NCBI RefSeq assembly: GCF_020564625.1
Contig: NZ_JAJBZT010000004.1
Span: 186,001-250,000 of the forward strand
Length of the DNA stretch: 64,000 bases
Reading direction: 5' to 3'
DNA from: Leeia speluncae
Lineage (GTDB): Bacteria; Pseudomonadota; Gammaproteobacteria; Burkholderiales; Leeiaceae
Made by a program: the position numbers and the translations under genes. Positions 4,335-49,542 of the stretch are shown here, one piece after another. Each line of letters starts with the position of its first letter. Position 1 is the first letter of the stretch. The notes under the pieces are model-generated. The model searched no databases and was not told where the DNA came from. It worked only from the letters and a program-made list of their open reading frames with translations.

Positions 4335-5213
4335 TTACAGAAGTAGATTGCCAGCAAAAACAGAAATAAGCCCACCGATCGCTAAATATGGGCCAAATGG
4401 AATGGCTTGGCCACGCCCTTTTTTCTTAAGCGCAATACTTGCGATGCCGATAGTTGCGCCAGCGATTGAAGAGATTAACACGATTTGCGGAATCATTTGC
4501 CACCCAAGCCATGCCCCCAATGCGGCTAACAGCTTGAAGTCTCCATATCCCATTCCCTCTTTGCCAGTGACTAGTTTGAAGGTCCAAAATACTAGCCAAA
4601 GGATCAGATAACCAACTGCGGCACCAAGGACTGAGTCATGTAGTGAAACAGTGCCTCCGAATGTACAAAATAAAATACCTAGCCACATTAATGGAAGGGT
4701 TAGGCTATCCGGTAGCAGCATGGTGTCAGCATCAATCCAAGCCAGAGCAATTAACGTTGCGGAAAACAAGAAAACAGCAACGGCAACATACCAGCCGAAT
4801 GGGCTGTAAATGTGCCAGCTTAATCCTGCAACAATGGCCGTTAATAACTCTACAGTCGGATAGCGAGGGCTAATCTTGGATTTACAGCCCGTACATTTCC
4901 CTTTTTGTATTGCATAACTCAATAATGGGATGTTTTCGATAGCAGTGATTTCATGGCCGCAATGTGGGCACGATGATGCTGGAACGACCAAATTAAATGG
5001 CGTGCTGCGCTTGAAAATACCAAACACCAACTGGCTTGTGCTAGCCAGTTGGTGTTTCTTTTCTGCATCTGTTTGCTGTTCACTTAATTCATTTAATGCA
5101 TTTCCAACATCGTCTCCCCATTGATGCTCCATTATTTTGGGGAGACGGTAAATCAATACATTTAAAAAACTGCCAATTGCTAAACCTGCGAGCGCGAAAA
5201 AAAATAAGTACAT
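4335..5213 (-). CDS. pilD: PilD, prepilin peptidase and N-methyltransferase
   Basis: This 292-residue polytopic membrane protein cleaves and methylates type IV prepilins. The cytoplasmic loop has the zinc-type Cys pairs C82/C85 (CPHC) and C107/C110 (CTGC). The aspartyl-protease residues lie in AWIDADTMLLPD (near residue 161) and GMGYGDFKLL (near 225). It is the only prepilin peptidase in the window, so it probably also serves the pilin genes at 44898-47553. Codons ~53-64 lie inside a 15-bp perfect inverted repeat. Its ATG overlaps the pilC stop codon by one base. Confidence 0.96.
   Translation of the reverse strand: MYLFFFALAGLAIGSFLNVLIYRLPKIMEHQWGDDVGNALNELSEQQTDAEKKHQLASTSQLVFGIFKRSTPFNLVVPASSCPHCGHEITAIENIPLLSYAIQKGKCTGCKSKISPRYPTVELLTAIVAGLSWHIYSPFGWYVAVAVFLFSATLIALAWIDADTMLLPDSLTLPLMWLGILFCTFGGTVSLHDSVLGAAVGYLILWLVFWTFKLVTGKEGMGYGDFKLLAALGAWLGWQMIPQIVLISSIAGATIGIASIALKKKGRGQAIPFGPYLAIGGLISVFAGNLLL
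5022..5057. repeat. 15-bp perfect inverted repeat inside pilD
   Basis: Arms AAACACCAACTGGCT (5022-5036) and AGCCAGTTGGTGTTT (5043-5057) are exact reverse complements separated by 6 bases. The repeat falls in the part of pilD that encodes the variable cytoplasmic loop before the Cys motifs. In RNA it would form a very stable hairpin inside the coding region. Confidence 0.85.
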
Positions 5214-36119: not shown

Positions 36120-36899
36120 TTAATTTCCTTGAAACATCAAAGCGGTTAACACAAAATCCAACATCAAAATCACCACAGAAGAAGTGACGACGGTTCTTGT
36201 TGTGGCTGCAGAAACACCTTCTGCCGTAGGGTGTGCGTCGTACCCTTCAAAAACAGCAATCAGTGTTACGGCTGTTCCAAATACGATGCTTTTAATCAGT
36301 CCGTTCACCAGGTCGTGTTGAAAATCAACATTAGCCTGCATCTGCCCCCAGAAAGTCCCAGTATCAATGCCAATCAATGGGACGGCAATTAAATAGCCGC
36401 CAAATATACCGACCACGTTAAAAATGGCGGCTAATAGCGGCATGGACAGAAAACCAGCCCAAAACCTAGGTGCAACCACGCGAGCAACCGGTTCGACGGC
36501 CATCATTTCCATCGCTGCTAGTTGTTCGGTTGCCTTCATCAGGCCGATTTCTGCCGTAATGGCGGAGCCTGCGCGGCTAGCAAATAACAACGCTGCTAGT
36601 ACAGGCCCTAGTTCTCTTAGTAGGGAAAGCGCGACAACCGTGCCTACGCCATCACCCGAGCCAAAGCGCTTGAGTACTTCATACATTTGCAGGCCAAGTA
36701 CCATGCCGACAAACAATGCTGACACACTAATAATGACTAAAGACTGAACGCCGGTGAAATACATCTGGCGAATAGTCAGGCTTGGGCGCTTGAGACAAGT
36801 GACCGATTGAAATAAAACGAATATCAAAAAACGGGTGGCGTAGCCCAAGCGAGTTAGGCTTTGACGGGTGGTTTTCCCTAGCCATTCAAAGAAGCTCAC
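36120..36899 (-). CDS. mlaE: MlaE, permease of the Mla lipid transporter
   Basis: This 259-residue MlaE-family permease has five to six hydrophobic segments. It shows the GSAITAEIGLMKATEQLAAM coupling region and the GYDAHPTAEGVSAATTRTVV end. The start is GTG at 36899, overlapping mlaF by 4 bases. Confidence 0.96.
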   Translation of the reverse strand: MSFFEWLGKTTRQSLTRLGYATRFLIFVLFQSVTCLKRPSLTIRQMYFTGVQSLVIISVSALFVGMVLGLQMYEVLKRFGSGDGVGTVVALSLLRELGPVLAALLFASRAGSAITAEIGLMKATEQLAAMEMMAVEPVARVVAPRFWAGFLSMPLLAAIFNVVGIFGGYLIAVPLIGIDTGTFWGQMQANVDFQHDLVNGLIKSIVFGTAVTLIAVFEGYDAHPTAEGVSAATTRTVVTSSVVILMLDFVLTALMFQGN

Positions 36900-37708
36900 G
36901 GCTGCTCTCCAAGTCCAAGGTCAGCGGTGTAGCTGGGTGCTGGTTTGTGAAAGGCAACAGGGCCATCTGGCTCTGCGTGGATAAACTGATGTACGTAAGG
37001 ATCGGTCGAGTTTAGGATTTCATCTGGCGTACCTTGGCCGACGATCTTGCCACTCGACATAAAATAAACTTTATCCACGATTTTTAATGATTCGGGGATA
37101 TTGTGTGTCACTAAGATGGAGCCAGTGCCAAGCGCATCATTTAGCTCTTTGATGAGGTCTGCAATGATGCTAAGTGAAATAGGATCTAATCCTGTAAACG
37201 GTTCATCGTAGAGCATCACTAATGGATCTAGCGCGATGGCTCTCGCTAAAGCAACCCGCCTTGCCATGCCCCCTGACAACTCATGGGGCATTAAGTTGGC
37301 GGCTCCTCTAAGACCTACTGCGTGTAACTTCATTAATACTAGATCACGTATGGTCTGCTCTGAGAGTTGAAAATGCTCTCGCAATGGGAATGCAATGTTT
37401 TCAAACACTGAAAGATCAGTAAAAAGCGCCCCAAACTGAAAGAGCATCCCCATTTGCTTACGCATGGCGAGTCTTTGTTTATGGGTTTGGGAGGTGACTT
37501 CTTCGCCTTGAAACTTGATGCTTCCCGATTGTTGGGAAAGTTGTCCTGAAATTAACTTCAGTAAAGTTGTCTTGCCGCTCCCGCTTCCCCCCATTAAGGC
37601 GACGATTTCACCACGAGAAACGCTCATGGAAATGCTATCTAAAAGCGGTGTTTCTCCATAGGAGAAGTGCACATTCGCTAATTCGATTAGAGGGGTGCTT
37701 GTGGACAA
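36896..37708 (-). CDS. mlaF: MlaF, ATPase of the Mla lipid transporter
   Basis: This 270-residue ABC ATPase has Walker A GGSGSGKTT (40-48), signature LSGGMARRVALARAI and Walker B MLYDEPFTGLD. The start is TTG at 37708, supported by GGAG 6 bases upstream and the lack of a nearby ATG. It is the first gene of the leftward cluster and is divergent from the MSHA-like locus. Confidence 0.95.
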   Translation of the reverse strand: MSTSTPLIELANVHFSYGETPLLDSISMSVSRGEIVALMGGSGSGKTTLLKLISGQLSQQSGSIKFQGEEVTSQTHKQRLAMRKQMGMLFQFGALFTDLSVFENIAFPLREHFQLSEQTIRDLVLMKLHAVGLRGAANLMPHELSGGMARRVALARAIALDPLVMLYDEPFTGLDPISLSIIADLIKELNDALGTGSILVTHNIPESLKIVDKVYFMSSGKIVGQGTPDEILNSTDPYVHQFIHAEPDGPVAFHKPAPSYTADLGLGEQP

Positions 37709-37863: not shown

Positions 37864-37897
37864 CATATTGACATCAATATGCAAATTGCATTATCTT
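37864..37897 (+). promoter_or_regulatory. Promoter of the MSHA-like locus with two overlapping palindromes
   Basis: A perfect -35 TTGACA (37868-37873) is followed after 18 bases by TATCTT (37892-37897). CATATTGA-CA-TCAATATG (37864-37881) is an 8-bp perfect inverted repeat covering the -35. ATGCAA-A-TTGCAT (37879-37891) is a second perfect palindrome in the spacer. Both are good operator candidates. The first gene starts ~35 bases downstream at 37931. Confidence 0.6.
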
Positions 37898-37930: not shown

Positions 37931-39703
37931 ATGTTGGTTGGGGCTTCACGGCGTCTTTTCTTAATTGTTCTCTCCGCTTACTTGTGCGGATGTGCATTGA
38001 AACCTCTGAAAGTGAATGAAGAGTCACATTTGTTCTTTCCAAGTAATGGGAAGCCGGATAGTGAACGTTCAGTTGTCGCTTCTCAAGTAATCCAAGCGTT
38101 AAAAGAAAGAGACGGTGTTCTGTCTCTTTCATCCAAAAAGATGACCGTGACAGTAAATAAAGTACCAGTTGCGGACTTGCTTTATCAAATCGCGAAAGAT
38201 GCCAGATTAAATATTGAAATTGCAGAAGATGTCAGTGGTGAAATTACGCTCAATTTAAATAATCAGACGATTGGTACTGTGTTTGGGGCGATCGCAGATA
38301 GTGCTGGCTTACGTTATGAACAGCGTAATAACTTGATTAAGGTAGAGAAAGATACGCCGTATTTGCTGGATTATGCCATTGATTATTTGAATATCTCACG
38401 AACCACTAAGGCTGAGGTGAATATATCCACTAGTCTTGGCAACGGTCTTGCGACAGATGCGTTGCAAGGCAATCGCTCCAATACGATCTTAACCAATGCG
38501 ACAGAAAGTCATTTCTGGCAATCATTGACCGACAATATCAATGCCATTCTGAAGGAAAAGGAAAAACTGATTGTTGTTGGAAAATCTGTCAGTACTAAAG
38601 ATGCTGGCGAAGCTAACACTAATTCGAATTCTGTGACGAAGGTGAGCATTGAAGGCGCCCAAAATGCGATACCAAGCAATCAAGAAGTGGCAATTAATGA
38701 GCGAGAAGTAAATGTCATCAGTAACCCTGATGGAGGCGTCATTTCTGTTCGCGCGACTGCAAAACAACACCAAAAAATCGCTCGGTTTTTAGACCGAGTG
38801 CTTAATCATGCGGGTAGACAAGTCCTAATCGAGGCAACGATCGCAGAGGTGATGCTATCAGACGAGTTTCAAAGCGGGGTGGATTGGAGTCGAATGATTT
38901 CCAATCGAGATGGATTCAGTGTTGGTCAGCAGCTTACAGGCAATCGGCTTGGGACTTCTCCCGTCACGGCGATCACTTATCAAAATCAAGATTCCGCATT
39001 ATTTTCAGGAACATTTTCGGCTACGTTGAAAATGTTAGAGTCCTTTGGAAAAACCAAGGTGCTCTCTAGTCCTAAAATTATGGCAATGAATAGTCAGACT
39101 GCATTGCTAAAAGTAGTGGATGAAAAAGTCTATTTTACCGTGACCTTGGATGAGTCTAAGAACGAAAAAGGAGATGTCACTGATCGTAAATATACCAGTG
39201 CCTTGCATACCGTGCCGGTTGGCGTGGTGATGAGTGTGCTGCCTCAAATTTCAAATGATGATCAAGTAATGTTGAACATTCGTCCAACCATCTCCCGCAT
39301 CACTGGCTATAAGCAAGATCCGGTTCCGCAGTTAATGAATGCAAGTTTTCAAAATCTTGTGCCAGAAATCCAAGTGAGAGAATTAGAGTCCATTTTAAAA
39401 GTCCCCGATGGGCAAGTGGTGGTTCTTGGTGGATTGATGCAAGATGAAATACAAAAAACTAGGGATGGGGTGCCAATTCTCAATCGGATTCCATTGGTTG
39501 GTGATTTGTTTGCTTATCAAGATCAAAAAGTGGTGAAGTCTGAATTAGTCATTTTTCTTCGCCCTGTGATTATTAAGAATAATCGCTTTCAGCAGATCAC
39601 CAATGCGCATCATGCGGTATTACCAACCGCAGAGTTTCTAACTAGTGCACTGATTGATGAGCCTCAAGTCGTGCTGTCTACCCATTCGCAACATTTTGAG
39701 TGA
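37931..39703 (+). CDS. mshL: MshL-like secretin lipoprotein
   Basis: This 590-residue secretin would form the outer-membrane gate of an MSHA-type pilus. The start at ATG 37931 gives a lipoprotein signal with lipobox LCGC (Cys21). An STN-like domain (VADLLYQIAKDARLNIEIAEDVSGEI) and N1-type repeat precede the secretin core, which has the signature VPDGQVVVLGGLMQDE and a C-terminal VIFLRPVII. The frame is open upstream, but that part lies inside the promoter. Family choice of MshL over PilQ rests on gene order. Confidence 0.88.
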   Translation: MLVGASRRLFLIVLSAYLCGCALKPLKVNEESHLFFPSNGKPDSERSVVASQVIQALKERDGVLSLSSKKMTVTVNKVPVADLLYQIAKDARLNIEIAEDVSGEITLNLNNQTIGTVFGAIADSAGLRYEQRNNLIKVEKDTPYLLDYAIDYLNISRTTKAEVNISTSLGNGLATDALQGNRSNTILTNATESHFWQSLTDNINAILKEKEKLIVVGKSVSTKDAGEANTNSNSVTKVSIEGAQNAIPSNQEVAINEREVNVISNPDGGVISVRATAKQHQKIARFLDRVLNHAGRQVLIEATIAEVMLSDEFQSGVDWSRMISNRDGFSVGQQLTGNRLGTSPVTAITYQNQDSALFSGTFSATLKMLESFGKTKVLSSPKIMAMNSQTALLKVVDEKVYFTVTLDESKNEKGDVTDRKYTSALHTVPVGVVMSVLPQISNDDQVMLNIRPTISRITGYKQDPVPQLMNASFQNLVPEIQVRELESILKVPDGQVVVLGGLMQDEIQKTRDGVPILNRIPLVGDLFAYQDQKVVKSELVIFLRPVIIKNNRFQQITNAHHAVLPTAEFLTSALIDEPQVVLSTHSQHFE

Positions 39704-39712
39704 TGTCTACTG

Positions 39713-41338
39713 ATGTTATTAGGTGAATATTTGCTACAAAAAAAGCTGATTCGGGTAGATCAGTTAACTGTGGCGCTGATTGAGCAAAAGTCGACGCTGC
39801 AGCCGATAGGGCAGTTAATTATTGCGGCCGGGTTTACAAGCAGAGAGGCGGTGAGTATTGCATTATGTGCACTCTTGGAAAGGCGTGTTTGTGTTGATAT
39901 CCAAGATATACAGCCTTGCCAACGTGCAATTAGCTATCTCTCTGCTAGTCAAGCAAAACAACTGACCGTTTGCCCGATGCGGTTTGACATCGCAGCAAAT
40001 GAATTACACATCGCTTGTTTGGATAGTGAAGATCTTTTAGTGAAAGATCAATTGCGAAAATTTACGCCGGCGAATGTGACAATAAAGCTTTTTCAAGCAT
40101 TAGCTGTAGACCTAAATCCTGCTATTGAGCAAATATATCGCAGCACTTTAAATGGATCGTCTGTTGGCAATGTGCTTAAGTTTGGTGCTGAGTTAGATGC
40201 ACCTTCATTAAATGAGCTATTTGCACTCGCCATCGCTCAGAATGCTTCTGATATGCACTTTGTGCCTGAAAAAACATATTTTTCAGTGAAGTTCAGAATT
40301 GATGGCGTGTTACTTGAGCGTGGCTGTTGGCATCTTAGTTTATGGCCATCCCTATCAATCCAAATCAAAGTATTGGCGGGATTAGATATTGCCGAGAGTA
40401 GAGGGATACAAGAAGGCCGTTTTAGTTATCAGTCAATGTTACGAATGGTTGAATGCCGGGTATCTATTCTGCCAATTGATTATGGCGAAAGTGTAGTCAT
40501 TCGCTTTCTAAAAGGTGCCGATTGGACGCATGGATTAGATGCGCTTCAGCTTACCTCCAATGCTCGCAATCGACTGTCAAAACTTTTGTTGAAGCGAGAT
40601 GGGTTAATTCTATTTTGTGGCCCAACCGGAAGTGGAAAAACAACTTCGCTATATGCACTGCTATCCGAGTTAAATCGGTCTGAACTGAATATTATTAGCC
40701 TTGAAGATCCTGTTGAATATCGATTGCAGGGTGTTCGTCAGGCCTCAATTGGTGAGTATTTAAAGCTAAATTTTGCTTCTGGGATGAAGGCTTCGCTTAG
40801 ACAAGATCCAGATATTCTGTTTATTGGTGAAATTAGAGATACCGAAACCGCGAAAATCGCGATGACCTCTGCGCTGTCTGGTCACTTGGTTTTTGCCACT
40901 GTCCATGCGCACTCCATCGTTTCTGCTTGGAATCGTCTACTAGACTTCGGTATCAGCCAGCAAATGCTAACCGCGAATATATCAGCAATCATTACTCAGC
41001 GATTAATTCGCAGACTGTGTCCTTGCTGTAAAGCTGCCGCTCAATCAAACCATCGTGTCACCCAACTCTGTGAACAACATCAGCTGAAGTTGCCTCAATC
41101 TTTGTTTCAGGCCATGGGCTGTGATGATTGTTTTGGTATTGGTTACAAGGGCCGTTTACCTGTTATGGAAGTGGATTTTCCGCAGAGTATGGGGGCTATC
41201 TCTTCCGTTTTTCGTGGGGCGGAATCAAATATTACTGAATATTCGCTTTTAGAGGATGCATGGCAAAGAGTGATCGAAGGACTAACTACACCGGCCGAAC
41301 TTTCTCGTCTTTTTAGCTTGGAAGAGTCGTTGGCATGA
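39713..41338 (+). CDS. mshE: MshE-like pilus assembly ATPase
   Basis: This 541-residue GspE/PilB-family ATPase has an N-terminal MshEN-like domain (residues ~1-130; in MshE and some relatives this binds c-di-GMP), Walker A GPTGSGKTTS near 304-312, Walker B region FIGEIRDTETAKIA and Cys pairs CPCC and CDDC. It is a paralogue of PilB at 6472. It starts 9 bases after the secretin gene. Confidence 0.92.
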   Translation: MLLGEYLLQKKLIRVDQLTVALIEQKSTLQPIGQLIIAAGFTSREAVSIALCALLERRVCVDIQDIQPCQRAISYLSASQAKQLTVCPMRFDIAANELHIACLDSEDLLVKDQLRKFTPANVTIKLFQALAVDLNPAIEQIYRSTLNGSSVGNVLKFGAELDAPSLNELFALAIAQNASDMHFVPEKTYFSVKFRIDGVLLERGCWHLSLWPSLSIQIKVLAGLDIAESRGIQEGRFSYQSMLRMVECRVSILPIDYGESVVIRFLKGADWTHGLDALQLTSNARNRLSKLLLKRDGLILFCGPTGSGKTTSLYALLSELNRSELNIISLEDPVEYRLQGVRQASIGEYLKLNFASGMKASLRQDPDILFIGEIRDTETAKIAMTSALSGHLVFATVHAHSIVSAWNRLLDFGISQQMLTANISAIITQRLIRRLCPCCKAAAQSNHRVTQLCEQHQLKLPQSLFQAMGCDDCFGIGYKGRLPVMEVDFPQSMGAISSVFRGAESNITEYSLLEDAWQRVIEGLTTPAELSRLFSLEESLA

Positions 41339-42543
41339 GTAGTGAGTTATATCGCTTTCGCGCAATGGATGAGCATGGGCGAATTTGTAAAGGCTCCCTC
41401 TTCGCAATTGATACGAACGACTTAACCAATCAATTAGCAATCAAAGGGCTTGATTTACTTTCGTATCGCAAGAGGTTGCGAACCGCTAGGACACCGCTGA
41501 ACAGATTGTTTGAGAAAGTCTCTATTAATGACTTTTTCTTTCATCTCCATAGTCTACTTGTCTCTGGTTATCCCATAATTGAGGCGTTAGCTTTGTTGGG
41601 GGAGCAATTCGAGACGCAAGTGGCTCTACGCAAGAAGGTCTTTTTATTAAAGGCGGGGGTTGAGTCTGGACTCGCATTCTCCGCTGCCTTTGAAAAATCA
41701 TTTGGTTTAGGTTCGCCATCCATTAACTGTCTGCTGAAAATTGGGGAGTTAAGTGGGCGTTTGCCGGAAGTGTTGGCGCAGTGCATTGCACTAGAAAATC
41801 ATCGAAAGAATCAGCGTCAGCGTGTGCTTTCGGTTTTATTTTATCCTTTGCTGACATCCCTCATTTTGTTGGTTGCGATTGGCATCATTATTTCTAACGT
41901 CGTCCCGCAATTAACTACATTGCTGATAATGGAAAATCAGTCTGTTCCATCAGATTTATTGCTGTTATTAACATTCAGTGATTTTGTAAAAGCACATTTA
42001 GTCGCCGTGCTCACTGCATCTATAAGCCTGTTTATCCTTCTTGCTATGGGTGTTCTTTCTCCAAAGGGAAGGCGGATTCTTCATGGCTTAGCGTTAAATT
42101 TACCTTTGCTCAAAGGCTATCTCTACCATAAGCAATGGTTGCAATCTTGTTATACCTTGCACCTGCTCTATATCTCCGGAGTGCCTATATTTGATGCGCT
42201 AGAAGCAATCTCAGAAAGTGCAGAGCTTGATGGTGTTCGGGAGCAACTTCTGCAGGCTAAGCAAGAAATTGCCAGTGGTGGTCGTTTTTCTCGTTGTTTT
42301 GCTAGTGCATTAAGCCTCCCAAGTGTTTACGAACGATATTTGTCGATAGGAGAGTCGTCAGGCACTTTAGACCTTAGTCTTCAGCAGATTATTGCCCTGC
42401 AAGAAAATCAAATTAAAAAGACCGAGACGCGTTGGCTCGCATGGCTTCAGCCACTTATTTTTATGGCGCTAGCCCTTGTAATGATTTGGATTTGTTTTTC
42501 TGTTTTTGGCGTGTTGTATATGCAAGTGGATCCGTCGCGATGA
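41335..42543 (+). CDS. mshG: MshG-like pilus platform protein
   Basis: This 402-residue GspF-family protein has two T2SSF repeats, each preceded by a cytoplasmic helical bundle (FFFHLHSLLVSGYPIIEAL and QSCYTLHLLYISGVPIFDAL), with three membrane segments. It is divergent from PilC. It overlaps the ATPase gene and the next gene by 4 bases each. Confidence 0.92.
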   Translation: MSSELYRFRAMDEHGRICKGSLFAIDTNDLTNQLAIKGLDLLSYRKRLRTARTPLNRLFEKVSINDFFFHLHSLLVSGYPIIEALALLGEQFETQVALRKKVFLLKAGVESGLAFSAAFEKSFGLGSPSINCLLKIGELSGRLPEVLAQCIALENHRKNQRQRVLSVLFYPLLTSLILLVAIGIIISNVVPQLTTLLIMENQSVPSDLLLLLTFSDFVKAHLVAVLTASISLFILLAMGVLSPKGRRILHGLALNLPLLKGYLYHKQWLQSCYTLHLLYISGVPIFDALEAISESAELDGVREQLLQAKQEIASGGRFSRCFASALSLPSVYERYLSIGESSGTLDLSLQQIIALQENQIKKTETRWLAWLQPLIFMALALVMIWICFSVFGVLYMQVDPSR

Positions 42544-43946
42544 AGAGAGGGAAAACGGGCATTTTAATTTGGACAGCCGAAAAGGTTAGTGCCTTCTTGT
42601 GGGAAGAAAGGCTAACTGCTTGTGAGTGGTTTGATAAGCAAACCGATGCTTGGTTAGCAGATTTTCAACGTTTTTTAACTGTTTGCCCAAATGTGACATG
42701 GCATGTGTTATTTACGCCTGAAAATGAACGATGGTTGTATGAAGAGATTCCGCCAGTTAGACAAGCAGAGGCACTCAAACTTCTTTCTTCTAGAATGGAG
42801 AAGGTCGATGCAAAATCGCTTTGTAGTTTTCAGAAGCTACAGAATCGCTTGCCAGATGGGCGACGGGATTGGGTTGCTTGGGTTGGTCAGACAGATAGTC
42901 AAACTAGTTTTGAAATAGAGGCTGCATTTCAATATCAACCGTTATCTCTTATCTCCATTCATACGGCAGGCAGTCTACTGCTAAGCCTCTCATATACATT
43001 TGAAACCACCCTTCAGGTAAATGTTGCCGTTCTTCAAATAGAGGATGTCGTTCATGTGGTTCTCTGTCTTGCAGGAAGTATCGTATTTAAACGGGAGCTC
43101 CCCGTCTCAAAGACATTTTCCACCGAGGTACTCGTAGAAGATGTATTGGAAAGCGTTAGTTATTGGCAGCAACAGGTCAATGAGTGTCGGGCAAACATGG
43201 AGGTGGCGTACCATTTTTTTCTTCCTAATTTGACTCATGAGAACAAGAGCGCGTTAATCGAACGAAATTGGAAACCGATATTTGATGGCGCAGAAAGTCT
43301 GTTAACTGTTTATTTGCAGCAATATGCTAGGCGAAACGATGCTTCGGGCTTTCTTTCTCATCGCTTCCAATTTCCTAGGTTACTGAGTAGATGGCGCCAA
43401 CGTGCCTGCACTTTCTTTATCTTTTGCGTACTGTGTGCTGCTGGTGCAGGGTATTTCTTTTGGTTAAAAAGCCAGTCGATTCAACTGCAAATTGACCAGT
43501 TAAAAAGACAGTCATTATTGTCTCTTCCAAGTTCGCCAGATCAGATAGCAGATGAAGCTACTTGGCAAGTTAGACAAAAAATTATTTCCGTTAAAGGCCA
43601 GCTTCAGAAAAGCCCCAGTCTGATTGATGACTGGTGGCAATTGAGTAAGGTAATAGAAGAGGTTGGCGACATACGTCTCACGAGGTTGGATTGGAGTGAA
43701 GACCCTGTCACAAAGAGAAAGGCAAAAGTCCAGCTAGATGCACAGCTAATTTGTGATGCCCAATTACCCGCATGCAGGGAAAAGCTCGCGCTTTTTCAAC
43801 GACAGTTAACAGCGTCTTTCAATACATGGCAAATTAATCTGCTGGGTAACTCACTTACTACGAGTAGATCACAAGAAGTGAATAGTGAAGATCGGGCATC
43901 CTCCGCGCATGAAGCAAACTTTACTGTGGAGTTGCAGAAACGATGA
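42540..43946 (+). CDS. MshI-like assembly protein (GspL/PilM-PilN type)
   Basis: This 468-residue protein has a large N-terminal cytoplasmic part (~1-285) with an actin-like/PilM feel, one membrane helix (FFIFCVLCAAGAGYFFWL, ~290-308) and a C-terminal ~155-residue periplasmic domain of PilN/GspL type. That layout matches MshI, which links the motor to the alignment complex. ATG at 42540 overlaps mshG (ATGA). The assignment is by layout and position. Confidence 0.72.
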   Translation: MKRGKTGILIWTAEKVSAFLWEERLTACEWFDKQTDAWLADFQRFLTVCPNVTWHVLFTPENERWLYEEIPPVRQAEALKLLSSRMEKVDAKSLCSFQKLQNRLPDGRRDWVAWVGQTDSQTSFEIEAAFQYQPLSLISIHTAGSLLLSLSYTFETTLQVNVAVLQIEDVVHVVLCLAGSIVFKRELPVSKTFSTEVLVEDVLESVSYWQQQVNECRANMEVAYHFFLPNLTHENKSALIERNWKPIFDGAESLLTVYLQQYARRNDASGFLSHRFQFPRLLSRWRQRACTFFIFCVLCAAGAGYFFWLKSQSIQLQIDQLKRQSLLSLPSSPDQIADEATWQVRQKIISVKGQLQKSPSLIDDWWQLSKVIEEVGDIRLTRLDWSEDPVTKRKAKVQLDAQLICDAQLPACREKLALFQRQLTASFNTWQINLLGNSLTTSRSQEVNSEDRASSAHEANFTVELQKR

Positions 43947-44551
43947 TCTCTTTAAATCGAGTTCTCGATGACACAGGCACACTCCGCTTATTTATTGTGC
44001 CAATTTCTATTGCGAGTGCTGGCGCTACGCTATTGCTTGCAAGTATCGTTGGTGGAGTGTGGAGTTTACATGCTCAGCACAAAACAGTGCAGCAATTAAC
44101 GTTAGATCACCAGCATCAAGTGATGCAAACCCAACGCATTGCCAATACGCGAAAAATTGCAATCAAGTTAAGCCCTGGTTGGGATCAATTTATCAAAGAG
44201 GGTTGGCTAACAGACCGTCGTACGGATTTAGTGAAGCAGCTAGATGATCTGGTTTCTACGCACAAAATGCTTTCTTTGAACTATCACCTCTCATCTGCAT
44301 ATGTGAAGTTGCCAACACTAACATCAGATTGGCAGCTTTTATCATCACGCGTCACAGTAAGCGCGAAGGTGAACGATGAATTGGTCGGGTTTGATTTGAT
44401 CCAGAAGGTTTTGCAGTTACCAACCCGACTTAGCTTAAGCAATTGTGAACTGTCAAAACTCCCTCCGCCTGACTCGCAGCCACTAATGTTGAACTGTGCA
44501 TTTGAGCAGTATTTTTTTGAGCCAATTCAAAAGAAGGGGCGTTCGGGGTGA
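43943..44551 (+). CDS. MshJ-like (PilO/GspM-type) alignment protein
   Basis: This 202-residue protein has one N-terminal membrane helix (FIVPISIASAGATLLLASIVGGVW, ~16-39), a coiled-coil stretch and a small periplasmic domain. This is the PilO/GspM layout. It overlaps both neighbours by 4 bases and lies where mshJ sits in MSHA loci. Confidence 0.65.
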   Translation: MISLNRVLDDTGTLRLFIVPISIASAGATLLLASIVGGVWSLHAQHKTVQQLTLDHQHQVMQTQRIANTRKIAIKLSPGWDQFIKEGWLTDRRTDLVKQLDDLVSTHKMLSLNYHLSSAYVKLPTLTSDWQLLSSRVTVSAKVNDELVGFDLIQKVLQLPTRLSLSNCELSKLPPPDSQPLMLNCAFEQYFFEPIQKKGRSG

Positions 44552-44901
44552 AGGTAGGTGCATTTCTTATATTCATGATGCTCATCATTATCACGCCAAC
44601 ATTAGCGGCTAAAGAGCTCGGGACCTTATTTTTCTCTCCAGAGGAACGGACTTCAAATCATTCACAGGTACCAATACTGATAGGGTGCGTTATCACTGGT
44701 GCATCATACGTGGATAACCACTGGACAGTGTGGCTTGGAGATCTGCCCATACATATTGGGGAGCGCTATTCAAATTGGACACTCATCTCTGCCAATGCCC
44801 GTCAATCTATATGGATGAATGCTGCAGGAAAATCCATTTCGCTGAAGATCGGACAACTCTTTCCATCGGAGTCCATTGATCGTGATGGAGTGGGGCGGTG
44901 A
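44548..44901 (+). CDS. MshK-like (PilP/GspC-type) small periplasmic protein
   Basis: This 117-residue protein starts at GTG 44548 and has a signal peptide (FLIFMMLIIITPTLAA). The remainder is a small beta-rich domain (VPILIGCVITGASYVDNHWTVWLG...) of the type that links inner-membrane proteins to secretins. MshK is the positional match; similarity is weak. Confidence 0.6.
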   Translation: MKVGAFLIFMMLIIITPTLAAKELGTLFFSPEERTSNHSQVPILIGCVITGASYVDNHWTVWLGDLPIHIGERYSNWTLISANARQSIWMNAAGKSISLKIGQLFPSESIDRDGVGR

Positions 44902-46061
44902 GTCGACTTTTTACTAGAAATAGACAAGCAGGGTATGTCGCTTTATCGGTGTTACTTACCGTATGTCTGGGTATGTTCTTAATCACTATTCACGTGAACA
45001 AAGCGCGGTCTCAAGTATTAGAGGAGCGGGCTCGCCGATTATATAAACTAGTGGAAATCAAACGGGTTTTATTGTCTCAATTGAGCGCCGATAGCTTTCG
45101 GTCGGTACTCGGAACGATGCATGCACCAGACGCAATATTTACAGGAACATCCGCAGGCATTGCAGACAATGGGCAATGTTTAAATGCGGATACTGAAACT
45201 GGTCTGCCATATATCCGCTACGGCAACATAGCCACTCTAAAACATAGTTTATTTTGTATTGGCTTGTTGCCAACTAAGGATATGAAGTTATCGATAGGGC
45301 AATTTGAAAATGCCGAAGCGATTACCTCCTATTGGTATGCTGTATCGCCAAATGTGTTGGATGTTGCCTCCAATCCACTGCTGCCGGGAGGGGCATGTAT
45401 CGCTCCATTAAATAGTAAAGTCATGCGGGAGCAAAAGGCAGGAAATGATTGTAGAAATGGAAGTCTTCCTTATGAGTGGTGGACAATCAAAGAGAATGGC
45501 AATCAGGTAATCGCGAATCAGGCGGTTGCGATTGTATTTGATGCGGGTACGGAGCAACCTGGAAAGTGGCAATCCACGAATGTAGTAACCAAAAACATGG
45601 TTGCATCTTATTTAGAAAGTATTGATGGCGCTTTTGATGCCAAGAGCGTCAGCAGATATCAGGTTTCAATTCCATCGGCTGAAGTGCAATTTTCCAGTCA
45701 CCCAAACTATTCAGATGATGTGCTTGTTTGGATCAGTGTGGCGGACTGGATAAATGCAGTGGTGCCTCATGTTGTTCATGTTTTCGCAAATGATTTCTCT
45801 TATCCGCTACCAGATAGTCGGCCGGCGATTGATTTAAAGCATCCCAATAGCGGTAGCATCCTTAATCGATGGCAAAGACTAGAGCGCCATTGGGGAGACA
45901 TTATTCATTACGATAAAGAGTCTGAAAGCGTTGCAAAGATTTGGTTAGATGGTTGCGATGCCACGTTTACGATTCAAATGCAGCAATCATTTGGTCAATA
46001 TCGTCCTGTGATTTCACAATCAGGCTTGTGCGCACTAGATGAGGTGGCAAATGCGCCCTAA
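44898..46061 (+). CDS. Prepilin-like minor pilin with Ser at +5
   Basis: This 387-residue protein starts with NRQAG then YVALSVLLTVCLGMFLITIHV, a prepilin-like helix. Ser occupies the usual +5 Glu position, as in GspK/PilX-type tip pilins that cap the filament. The long C-terminal domain has a NQAVAIVFDAG segment and SDDVLVWIS, both matched in the next pilin. The start is GTG at 44898. Confidence 0.7.
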   Translation: MSRLFTRNRQAGYVALSVLLTVCLGMFLITIHVNKARSQVLEERARRLYKLVEIKRVLLSQLSADSFRSVLGTMHAPDAIFTGTSAGIADNGQCLNADTETGLPYIRYGNIATLKHSLFCIGLLPTKDMKLSIGQFENAEAITSYWYAVSPNVLDVASNPLLPGGACIAPLNSKVMREQKAGNDCRNGSLPYEWWTIKENGNQVIANQAVAIVFDAGTEQPGKWQSTNVVTKNMVASYLESIDGAFDAKSVSRYQVSIPSAEVQFSSHPNYSDDVLVWISVADWINAVVPHVVHVFANDFSYPLPDSRPAIDLKHPNSGSILNRWQRLERHWGDIIHYDKESESVAKIWLDGCDATFTIQMQQSFGQYRPVISQSGLCALDEVANAP

Positions 46062-46842
46062 TTTAAATCAAAAGCAAATAGGATTTAGCCTGTTTGAGTT
46101 ATCCATCGTTCTTTTGGTTTTGTCTATTCTGCTGTCTGCTTATTTGCGTTATGAGTCTGTTGCAAATAAGGACAGGTATCTGCGCCAAACTGAACGTATT
46201 TTGCAAAATGCAAAAAGTAGCTTGTTAGATTATGTTGCATTAAATGGGGCATTGCCTTGTCCTGCATCGGCTACAAGTCACGGGCAACCAGCGGTAACTG
46301 CAGATGGTAAATGCTTGCAACCATACGATGGCTATTTTCCAGCTGCCTTTTTAGGGGTTAGTGGAGTAGATGAAGAGGGTTATTTGCCAGATGCGCTAGA
46401 TAGTGTTCATCACCGTATTCGTTATGCCGTATCGATAAATGGTTTTTCAACCATATCTTCTTGCTCGTCGTCGCCTTCGACACAAAAGTCTGGGCTGTGG
46501 ACATCTCCTATTTCAGCCCCTGATAACTTACGAACAAATTTTTATCTTTCGAACCCCATTACGCCTGAATTATGTGTCTGCAGTACAGCGAGTTGTTCTC
46601 CATCATCGACTTGGTTGGCAAATGGGGTGGTGGCCATCGTTTATTCCTTAGGGAGGAATGTAAATGAACATCCGATTGGAGTTGATGAGCTACAAAATGC
46701 GAAGAAAGATAAAGGGGCAAGGAACCGGATATTTGTGATGCATGGGCCTTCTGAAACAAGTGATCAATTTTTCGATGATTCGCTCATCTGGATTTCTGCT
46801 CCTGAGATATATGGACAAATGTTAAAAGCCAACAAAATTTAA
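46051..46842 (+). CDS. Type IV prepilin-like protein (minor pilin)
   Basis: This ~263-residue pilin has a canonical leader and helix (NQKQIG, then FSLFELSIVLLVLSILLSAY) with Glu at +5. ATG at 46051 gives an 11-residue leader; ATG at 46039 is possible. The head domain opens with GALPCPAS and has NGVVAIVYSLG and FDDSLIWIS, matching the preceding gene. The start overlaps that gene by 11 bases. Confidence 0.82.
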   Translation: MRPNLNQKQIGFSLFELSIVLLVLSILLSAYLRYESVANKDRYLRQTERILQNAKSSLLDYVALNGALPCPASATSHGQPAVTADGKCLQPYDGYFPAAFLGVSGVDEEGYLPDALDSVHHRIRYAVSINGFSTISSCSSSPSTQKSGLWTSPISAPDNLRTNFYLSNPITPELCVCSTASCSPSSTWLANGVVAIVYSLGRNVNEHPIGVDELQNAKKDKGARNRIFVMHGPSETSDQFFDDSLIWISAPEIYGQMLKANKI

Positions 46843-46848
46843 ATAGTC

Positions 46849-47553
46849 ATGAAAGTGATAAGAATGAAGTTACGAAATAGCGCCGTTAATCTTGGGTTTA
46901 CACTTGTTGAGATGGCCATTGTATTGCTCATTATCAGTGTCTTGGTTGGCGGGATTTTGAAGGGGCAGGCGATGATTAATACTGCACGTGTTCATGCTTT
47001 TGTCTCTGATTTAAAGTCGATTCAATTGGCGTATCAAACGTTTGTGTCGAAATATCACCATATCCCAGGAGATTGGAGCGAAGCATCTTCTGCAATCCCC
47101 GGTGCGGTCAACTGTGAGGTAGATTGCAATATGGGCCAGATAGATTCCGCAAGAAAGTCAATCATCGCATTTAATCAGATGAGTGCAGCAGGCCTGCTGA
47201 GTGGTTCGTATAATGGAATAGGTGATGTAGGGTCTTCGGAAAATAGTCCAACCAACCCTTGGGGTGGGATCATGCAGATTGGTGTGGATAATCAATTTCT
47301 GAATTCATCCTCGGCTTCACGAATGAACTTGAAGACGGGAGGTTTAATTCCTGCGGTAATACTAAAAGACATAGACCAAACGCTAGATGATGGTAGTGCG
47401 AAAAGCGGAGGGTTCCGCTTTTCCTCATGGCAGAATAATCTTCAGAAAACGGCCGTAGAAGGTTGTGTGGAGACTGTACAAGGCCATTTGCAGTGGAGCG
47501 TTAATCCAGACACCACATCTAGTAATTGCAGTGGTGCCTATCTATTTGATTAG
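46849..47553 (+). CDS. Type IV prepilin-like protein (possible major pilin)
   Basis: This 234-residue pilin has the textbook motif NLG then FTLVEMAIVLLIISVLVGGI, with Glu at +5. The alpha1 helix continues into QLAYQTFVSKYHHIPGDWSEA. Several Cys and a DDG turn lie in the head. It is the last gene of the locus and has the most standard prepilin, so it may be the main subunit, though it is larger than typical MshA. It ends one base before the convergent antiporter gene. Confidence 0.82.
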   Translation: MKVIRMKLRNSAVNLGFTLVEMAIVLLIISVLVGGILKGQAMINTARVHAFVSDLKSIQLAYQTFVSKYHHIPGDWSEASSAIPGAVNCEVDCNMGQIDSARKSIIAFNQMSAAGLLSGSYNGIGDVGSSENSPTNPWGGIMQIGVDNQFLNSSSASRMNLKTGGLIPAVILKDIDQTLDDGSAKSGGFRFSSWQNNLQKTAVEGCVETVQGHLQWSVNPDTTSSNCSGAYLFD

Positions 47554-49542
47554 TTAACTGCCCTGTAGTAAGCGTTTTTCAGCGCTTTTTAGAGACTCCG
47601 GTGTGCCTAAGATAACCAGCGTATCATCTACTTGAATTACCAATTCTGGTGCTGGGGTAATGGTGCGTGTATTGCGTCTTCTAATCGCGCGAATTTCAAC
47701 ACCGCATTCACTTTCAAGGCAAACTTCAGATAGTGTTTTATCTGCCGCATATGCGCTTTCGGCAATATGAATGGTGTGCAAGCGTGGGTGAGAAGCATCT
47801 CCCGCGCTTTCTTGCAAATCGGTCTCCCCAACGAAGAAGCCTTTAAATAACGCGTATTGCTCTTCTCTGGTTTGTCGTATGCGACGAATGACCCTAGAGA
47901 ATGGAATGCCAAGCAGCATGAGTGTATGACTAGCGAGCATTAAGCTACCTTCTTGCAACTCTGCAACGACCTCTGCTGCCCCCGCATCTTTTAGTTTTTC
48001 GATGTCGGTGCCATCAAGCGTGCGAACAATAATCGGTAGTTCGGGGCGAATATCTTGCACATGACTAATAATTTTTTGGGCAAGGTGGGTGTCAGAAAAG
48101 GCAATTACGACGGCACTTGCCCGTTTTAGTCCAGCAGCGATGAGCGCCTCTTTCTTGCCCGCATCACCAAATACTACTTGCTCACCTGCAGCTCTCGCTT
48201 CTGCAATTCTCTCAGGATCTAAATCAAGCGCCATAAATGGAATATTTTCGACCGACAACGTTCGTGCAAGATATTGGCCGCTTCGACCATATCCACATAT
48301 CAGTACATGGGATTCGGCATCCATACTTGCCATCGCAATTCGAGTGAGCTGTAGGGATTGGCTCATCCACTCCGATTTGACGAATTTCAGCACAATTTTA
48401 TCGCTGCGCTGGATTAGCAGTGGGGCGACAAACATGGCAATTACCATTGCACTTAATAAGCTTTGTTGCAGGTAGTTGGATAGTAGCGCCTCGCCACTTT
48501 GTGTCGCGAGTGCAAGTAAGACAAAGCCAAATTCGCCTGCTTGTGCTAAGTAAATACCCGTTCTGAGTGAGACACCTGGCGGGTATTTAAAGATTTTGCA
48601 GAGCCCCGCAATCATGATCATTTTGCCTGGAATGAGCAGCACTAAAAAGACTGCAATCCCTAATGCATATTGCCATAAGTGCAATATGTCTAACTTCATA
48701 CCAATAGTCACGAAGAAGAGACCCAATAGAATGTCTCTAAATGGGCGGATGTTGTCTTCAACCTCAAATCGATATTCGGTTTCGGAAATCAGCATGCCAG
48801 CCACAAATGCACCAAGCGCCATCGATAGTTTGGCCTGGGAGGTTAGCCAAGCGATGCCAAGGGTAATAAGGAGTACATTTAAGATGAAAAGCTCAGAGGA
48901 TTTCTGGCTGGCAACAAGATGAAACCATTTACGCAGTAACTTATCGCCAAGATAGAAAACTGCTAGCAGCACTAAGACAGCTTGAAGCCCTGCAATGCCC
49001 AATTCAATAAACAGATCTTTGCCGCTTGGATTGGTTGCTAGTGCTGGGATAAGAATCAGTAGGGGAACCACTGATAAATCTTGAAACAACAAGATACCAA
49101 AAATTTGCCTGCCATGTGCAGACTCTAACTCAATGCGTTCTGTGAGGATTTTGCTGACAATAGCAGTAGAGGACATGGCTAACATGCCGCCTAACGCTAA
49201 ACCTGTTTGCCATGAAAGACCGATTTGACTAGTCACAAGTGGAAAAACAATCAAACTAATGACCACTTGTGCCATGCCTAACCCAAAGACGCTATGGCGC
49301 ATGGCTTTTAGTTTGGCGAGACTAAATTCAAGCCCGATCGAGAACATCAGAAAGACAACACCAATCTCTCCTAACGTTTCTGTGCTATCGTTTTCGGTAA
49401 TTAAACTGAAGGCGTGTGGTCCGATGAGCATGCCAACAAGTAAATAACCCAAAATGGCTGGCTGCTTGAGCATACGGCAACCCACCACAGCAATAACTGC
49501 AGCAAATAGAAGTAAAAGAACAGGTTCTAAAGTGTTGTGCAT
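47554..49542 (-). CDS. Kef/YbaL-type cation:proton antiporter (CPA2)
   Basis: This 662-residue protein has about 12 membrane segments (residues 1-~390), then a RCK/TrkA-N domain with the nucleotide fold CGYGRSGQYLARTL (~413-426), and a TrkA-C domain at the end (~575-660). This is the KefB/KefC/YbaL layout. No KefF/KefG partner gene is adjacent. Closest by overall look is YbaL; substrate K+ or Na+ is not decided by sequence. Confidence 0.9.
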   Translation of the reverse strand: MHNTLEPVLLLLFAAVIAVVGCRMLKQPAILGYLLVGMLIGPHAFSLITENDSTETLGEIGVVFLMFSIGLEFSLAKLKAMRHSVFGLGMAQVVISLIVFPLVTSQIGLSWQTGLALGGMLAMSSTAIVSKILTERIELESAHGRQIFGILLFQDLSVVPLLILIPALATNPSGKDLFIELGIAGLQAVLVLLAVFYLGDKLLRKWFHLVASQKSSELFILNVLLITLGIAWLTSQAKLSMALGAFVAGMLISETEYRFEVEDNIRPFRDILLGLFFVTIGMKLDILHLWQYALGIAVFLVLLIPGKMIMIAGLCKIFKYPPGVSLRTGIYLAQAGEFGFVLLALATQSGEALLSNYLQQSLLSAMVIAMFVAPLLIQRSDKIVLKFVKSEWMSQSLQLTRIAMASMDAESHVLICGYGRSGQYLARTLSVENIPFMALDLDPERIAEARAAGEQVVFGDAGKKEALIAAGLKRASAVVIAFSDTHLAQKIISHVQDIRPELPIIVRTLDGTDIEKLKDAGAAEVVAELQEGSLMLASHTLMLLGIPFSRVIRRIRQTREEQYALFKGFFVGETDLQESAGDASHPRLHTIHIAESAYAADKTLSEVCLESECGVEIRAIRRRNTRTITPAPELVIQVDDTLVILGTPESLKSAEKRLLQGS

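Follow-up and report, generated by a model that had tools for sequence, protein, structure and literature searches.

A probably reduced MSHA-like pilus locus beside the mla genes of Leeia speluncae

Nine genes between mlaF and a Kef-type antiporter

Leeia speluncae (Burkholderiales, Leeiaceae), which belongs to the same genus as Leeia oryzae and has a genome of 3.78 Mb, harbors a compact pilus gene locus in the stretch of 64,000 nucleotides analyzed here (NZ_JAJBZT010000004.1, positions 186,001 to 250,000; the window). We consider it likely that this locus is a secondarily reduced, betaproteobacterial and mla-linked form of the type IV filament machine known from mannose-sensitive hemagglutinin (MSHA) pili. 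It consists of nine intact open reading frames (ORFs) on the + strand, reaching from mshL to the prepilin gene p9 (37931-47553, 9.6 kb), and none of the frames is interrupted. The order, strand and tight spacing given in an earlier note on this DNA, which had placed a nine-gene locus between mla and a Kef antiporter, are hereby confirmed. Six of the eight neighboring pairs overlap (mshE to p8), by 4 bp for each pair from mshE to p7 and by 23 bp for p7/p8, which indicates one coupled operon. The features of the locus, followed by its surroundings, are:

37931..39703, + strand: mshL-type secretin lipoprotein, 590 amino acids, lipobox Cys21 (TIGR02519 match, Cys21, tree)
39713..41338, + strand: mshE-type extension ATPase, 541 amino acids (T2SSE and MshEN domains, motifs, tree)
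41335..42543, + strand: mshG-type inner-membrane platform protein, 402 amino acids (two T2SSF domains)
42540..43946, + strand: mshI-type protein, 468 amino acids; by predicted fold an actin-like cytoplasmic domain, a transmembrane helix and a GspL-like periplasmic domain in one chain
43943..44551, + strand: mshJ-type protein (PilO/GspM position), 202 amino acids (profile of relatives that includes the window protein, conserved position)
44548..44901, + strand: mshK-type protein (PilP/GspC position), 117 amino acids (same kind of profile, conserved position)
44898..46061, + strand: p7, large prepilin-like protein lacking Glu5 (RQAG|YVALS), 387 amino acids (sequence; position conserved across relatives)
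46039..46842, + strand: p8, minor prepilin (IG|FSLFE), 267 amino acids (TIGR02532; conserved in relatives)
46849..47553, + strand: p9, candidate major prepilin (LG|FTLVE), 234 amino acids (TIGR02532; type IVb-like predicted fold)
36896..37708, - strand: mlaF, part of mlaFED, left border of the conserved junction
37868..37897, + strand: promoter-like site TTGACA-18-TATCTT upstream of the mshL start, a consensus match only (10 of 12 positions)
47554..49542, - strand: Kef-type CPA2 antiporter, right border of the conserved junction
4335..5213, - strand: PilD prepilin peptidase (A24_N_bact and Peptidase_A24), the sole match in the genome

The secretin reaches the cut-off of the MshL equivalog family only (TIGR02519 of NCBIfam, 265.4 bits at a curated cut-off of 250.2), and stays far below those for GspD (152 of 351 bits) and PilQ (121 of 284 bits). 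Its lipobox Cys21 is invariant across 13 relatives. The ATPase has a T2SSE core plus the Pfam domain MshEN and lies under the equivalog cut-offs for GspE (346 of 630 bits) and PilB (331 of 676 bits). It keeps the Walker A motif GPTGSGKTT, the GEIRD box and the four zinc cysteines, and its linker lacks about 16 residues before the N2D domain, in the region of the conserved PVVRLIDALL stretch. The platform protein is below the GspF equivalog cut-off.

For I, J, K and p7 of the window no match to any curated family was obtained, nor did Pfam scans of their counterparts in relatives give a match, and searching I by sequence against solved structures brought nothing relevant. The AlphaFold model of I (predicted local distance difference test, pLDDT, 77) aligns by VIA-align to PilM (2ych, Z 14.5) and EpsL (1yf5, Z 14.1), and its periplasmic domain matches that of the GspL-type proteins PulL/XcpY (Z 10-11). 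According to this model I is a PilM-PilN fusion as in GspL. Both p8 and p9 have standard class III signal sequences with the GFxxxE prepilin motif; that of p7 is similar with Glu5 missing, as in GspK, which makes p7 a candidate for a GspK-like tip protein. The p9 model is of moderate confidence (pLDDT 71). Its closest structure is the type IVb pilin TcpA (8uhf, Z 9.0, root-mean-square deviation 4.5 over 161 residues), with PulG also among the matches (Z 4.5). Compared with viral contigs, p9 gave no match. The secretin lipoprotein, the GspF-type platform and the three prepilin-like proteins that had been read from the letters alone are thus borne out by TIGR02519, the two T2SSF domains, TIGR02532 (p8, p9) and the N-terminus of p7.

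An MSHA-like locus of its own subfamily

Whole genomes and named GTDB contigs served as the source of relatives, and a profile census yielded 125 loci with a complete neighborhood. Their common layout is [sigma-54 regulator]-mshM-mshL-mshN-mshE-mshG-I-J-K-p7-p8(-p9), often pointing away from mlaF. The window follows the mla-linked order L-E-G-I-J-K-p7-p8 beside mlaF, and its operon likewise points away from mlaFED. Because long branches affected the first trees of the ATPase (E) and the platform (G), new ones were built from improved reference sets. In these, the mla-linked ATPases of the relatives fall into one clade and their platforms into another (100/100 for each), distinct from PilB/PilC, GspE/GspF and classical MSHA. 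The ATPases of the window and of L. oryzae fall inside the mla-linked MSHA-like clade (100/100), and the approximately unbiased (AU) test rejects a union of the ATPase with classical MSHA (2.5e-5), GspE (3.4e-6) and PilB (1.7e-4). By these tests and the missed GspE and PilB cut-offs, an assignment of the ATPase to a type II secretion system (T2SS) or to a type IVa pilus (T4aP) is ruled out. Of the "PilB-type" ATPase in the earlier note the extension ATPase (T2SSE) therefore remains, whereas its place is not in the PilB clade. In the secretin tree the window protein groups with the MSHA secretins, mla-linked and classical ones together forming one group (100/98), and the two Leeia copies are sisters (100/100).

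With Sulfuricella, Gallionellaceae, Chitinimonas and Iodobacter, all of which have mla-linked loci, the window shares the gene order, the mla neighbor, the secretin and ATPase clades and the fused I. Iodobacter and Chitinimonas retain the complete locus. Most mla-linked loci of other Betaproteobacteria have mshM and mshN, in many cases along with a sigma-54 regulator, and their motor is conserved, whereas the window lacks all three genes and its motor is strongly diverged. For Sideroxydans and Gallionella the MSH clusters have already been noted as rearranged (PMC3770913). Leeia oryzae DSM 17879 (L042/L062) has the same junction and the same nine genes, with a sister secretin. Unlike the window, it has the first MshEN motif intact and an additional ORF of 222 amino acids between mshL and mshE. 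This ORF (L042:6209-6877) stands in the place of mshN and has a transmembrane-like segment and no family match.

Classical MSHA loci (Vibrio, Aeromonas, Legionella) have in common with the window a related secretin, a MshEN-type ATPase, the platform and the lack of a peptidase in the locus. They differ by separate PilM-like and PilN-like proteins, by the order I-J-K-L-M-N-E-G-pilins, by other ATPase and platform clades and by the presence of mshM and mshN. Thus, the Aeromonas caviae locus has separate ORFs of 291 and 197 amino acids in place of the fused I as well as a different gene order, and the annotated locus of Legionella adelaidensis encodes separate PilM-like and PilN proteins. From the separate clades, the fused I and the different gene order it follows that the locus is MSHA-like and a subfamily of its own, not classical MSHA. 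The MSHA-like character proposed earlier holds, whereas gene order, I, the ATPase clade and, in trees of the relatives, the platform clade set the locus apart from classical MSHA. A published MacSyFinder model for MSH asks for at least three of mshA, mshE, mshG, mshL and mshM and for a total of four genes (PMC6668835), and counterparts of its L, E and G are present in the window by homology. Within the order, an MSHA locus of the classical type (E-G-pilins...L-M-N) accompanies or replaces the mla-linked one in several genomes (L147, L149, L154, L155, L159 and their neighbors L225-L229).

The genome encodes only two secretins, PilQ and the mshL-type one. Since PilQ is the only other secretin, the genome has a T4aP and the MSHA-like machine and no T2SS. 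The MshL equivalog match and the ATPase clade also uphold the claim that, apart from the T4aP genes, there is a second filament machine of MSHA-like kind. PilT/PilU-like ATPases are present as well. Two lone ATPases were noted in G000: one beside an rpsT-like gene (L044:7496-9283, G000 contig C9) scores above the cut-off for TfpB, the accessory type IV pilus extension ATPase (901 vs 850 bits), and a PilB-like one of 793 amino acids (L045:8222-10603, G000 contig C15) has about 200 extra N-terminal residues. No prepilin peptidase besides PilD is encoded in the genome, and PilD is presumed to be shared between the T4aP and the MSHA-like machine. The reliance on PilD suspected from the letters may therefore stand; the missing peptidase is no oddity, since MSH loci in general carry none (PMC6668835).

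The kef-mlaF junction and the loss of genes

The arrangement kef-[locus]-mlaF is found in the same orientation in 12 of 60 compared genomes belonging to 11 families, with the flanking genes 8-22 kb apart. In most of these families the locus is a fuller version, adding mshM, mshN and often the sigma-54 regulator. This recurrence shows that the junction is old and that the compact locus occupies the site of fuller ones. Five genomes of four families have an empty junction (kef and mlaF 82-117 bp apart), among them G001, the third Leeia member. Because the locus is present across many families, its absence from G001 probably reflects a loss rather than an independent gain by the two other Leeia members. 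In G001 a different filament or secretion locus was observed (L152:2661-11187), comprising a pilin, GspF-like and GspE-like proteins, a PilQ/GspD-like secretin and further pilins, with ATPase and secretin under all equivalog cut-offs. The junction also accepts other content: in L251 (G034:C25:20000-39000) it holds about 16 kb of genes that are unrelated, so that a diverged msh locus is ruled out there.

Neither mla-type MshM nor MshN has a match anywhere in the genome of the window at E <= 1e-3. Their absence had been noted before for the locus and extends to the whole genome; no missing part of a full msh locus (mshM, mshN) turned up elsewhere. Among the 125 complete loci mshN is kept in 118, mshM in 95 and the regulator in 63, i.e., mshM is missing in 30 and mshN in seven. 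The ATPase gene follows almost directly after the secretin gene in the window, L168, L184 and L193; a short unrelated or diverged stretch lies between the two in L061 (G005), L. oryzae and L202. The recurrence of loci without mshN, together with the fuller loci at the same junction, indicates that minimality has arisen repeatedly and by secondary reduction. A further compact locus at the same junction is that of G005, where the ATPase (L061:8636-9631) has 331 amino acids, with neither an MshEN domain nor the C-terminal part, and where the platform protein is barely recognizable.

A motor that changes faster than its secretin

Between the two Leeia species the ATPase is 37% identical, the platform 32% and I/J/K 20-24%, whereas the secretin reaches 55% and the flanking genes 75-86% (mlaE 86%). 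For 88 other pairs with 80-95% identity in mlaE the medians are 77% (E), 66% (G) and 59% (L), with minima of 64% for E and 53% for G, and the ATPase is at least as conserved as the secretin in all of 703 pairs of other genomes. Since the window protein had seeded the profile, the profile bit scores of its ATPase were dropped as evidence for divergence, which was judged by identities to an outside panel. Measured against ten full loci, ATPase-minus-secretin identity is -4 for the window, the lowest of all 125 loci (median 15.6, standard deviation 4.7), and L. oryzae is fourth lowest. The Leeia pair differs at codon positions 1/2/3 by 0.54/0.36/0.69 in mshE and 0.60/0.41/0.72 in mshG. Changes at second positions are thus about half as frequent as those at third positions, which shows that both proteins are still constrained. 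Loci without mshN as a group have lower ATPase-minus-secretin values (p 0.0007, not corrected for kinship). As a general cause of a fast motor the loss of mshN was rejected, because L168 and L202, both without detectable mshN, are near normal (13 and 14 vs the median of 15.6).

For MshEN we asked for two copies of a relaxed form of the 24-residue motif of Wang et al. 2016 (PMC5013675). The ATPase of the window fails this cyclic di-GMP (c-di-GMP) motif in both halves (R9 to L, G18 to K, Q61 to L), while Pfam MshEN still matches. The idea of a lost c-di-GMP binding as a special trait of the window is weakened, since 15 other loci also fail both halves (16 of 125 in total) and key sites are occupied by Pro or Asn in much of the clade.

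Weighing the explanations

The picture of a minimal cassette, recently acquired and placed between two housekeeping operons, can draw on the discrete operon on the opposite strand and on the empty junction of G001. However, it was ruled out by synteny, as the same junction in the same orientation carries the locus, mostly in fuller form, in 11 families; its small size is a matter of secondary loss. Moreover, the locus genes (GC content 0.42-0.46) hardly differ in composition from mla and kef of the same genome (0.44-0.48), and the secretins of the two Leeia species group together. We therefore give this picture practically no credence. The locus is not a new machine, it is a variant of a known pilus machine that is common among related bacteria at the same site.

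Less remote, though still improbable, is that the locus was turned into a secretion system in which a short p9 pseudopilus drives exoproteins through MshL and replaces the missing T2SS. The fused I, GspL-like by its predicted fold, the GspE and GspF homologs and the lack of Glu5 in p7 as in GspK are shared with T2SS, no T2SS secretin exists in the genome, and platform and ATPase diverge fast while the secretin does not. On the other hand, none of the window proteins reaches the cut-offs of GspD, GspE or GspF, the ATPase is excluded from the GspE clade, p9 is large and TcpA-like rather than a pseudopilin of GspG size (despite its PulG match), no cargo gene is linked, and the fused I occurs throughout the mla-linked clade including genomes that also have a T2SS. 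In a related scenario, which we regard as similarly doubtful, loss of MshM/MshN and the regulator would have freed the motor, so that E, G, I, J and K were rebuilt around the kept secretin and pilins, giving a minimal machine that is independent of c-di-GMP and has taken on a new task such as T2SS-like secretion. Less probable again is that the locus no longer works and has been drifting since mshM and mshN were lost. Patchy retention in the genus, the shortened ATPase of the compact G005 locus and an ATPase that is the most diverged of 125 loci relative to its own secretin would fit such decay. Against it stand the nine intact, overlapping frames that span 9.6 kb and recur in a second species, the preserved catalytic motifs, the codon-position pattern and the near-normal motors of L168 and L202.

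What remains is the reduced, probably still working MSHA-like pilus, and several points weigh against it. The window platform is long-branched, and in a quick platform tree the Leeia pair stood outside the mla-linked clade; with long branches for both ATPase and platform, the support values overstate how certain their exact placement is. The assignment of I, J, K and p7 relies on position, on profiles containing the window proteins or on predicted fold. Finally, the degraded MshEN motifs may point to a weaker c-di-GMP control.

Proposed working of the pilus

The following model is built by homology with T4aP, MSHA and T2SS. Most likely the nine genes build a second hair-like surface filament. 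PilD would trim the prepilins p7, p8 and p9, and a p7/p8 complex would prime assembly; the pilus probably starts on a p7/p8 tip. A hexamer of E, anchored to the cytoplasmic domain of I and working on the platform G, would push p9 subunits into a thin pilus. J and K may bridge the inner and outer membranes and link to the MshL secretin, through which the pilus would exit, its likely use being attachment. Retraction, if any, may be carried out by PilT/PilU of the T4aP; the MSHA pili of V. cholerae use a shared PilT (PMC9815625). Regarding its history, the Leeia lineage would have lost mshM, mshN and the sigma-54 regulator, and the motor (E, G) and the coupling proteins (I, J, K) have diverged unusually fast, with secretin and pilins at a normal pace.

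The ends of the operon

A listed TTG start at 37868 sits on the promoter match at 37868-37897, so that 37931 is the likelier start of mshL. The match itself is weakened by the promoter scan overall, which found fewer sites than in shuffled sequence. At the other end the stop codon of p9 (TAG) and that of kef on the opposite strand (TAA) abut without any spacer (window 47548-47556), and hence both transcripts must overlap or terminate within coding sequence.

Significance

The kef-mlaF junction offers a natural reduction series that begins with regulator-M-L-N-E-G-..., continues with loci lacking M and others lacking both M and N, and ends in an empty gap of 82-117 bp; it shows which components can be absent from an MSHA-like machine. 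That the motor outpaces the secretin in its evolution is the inverse of the usual pattern. MshM and MshN are little studied, and the mla-linked loci make the need for both proteins directly testable.

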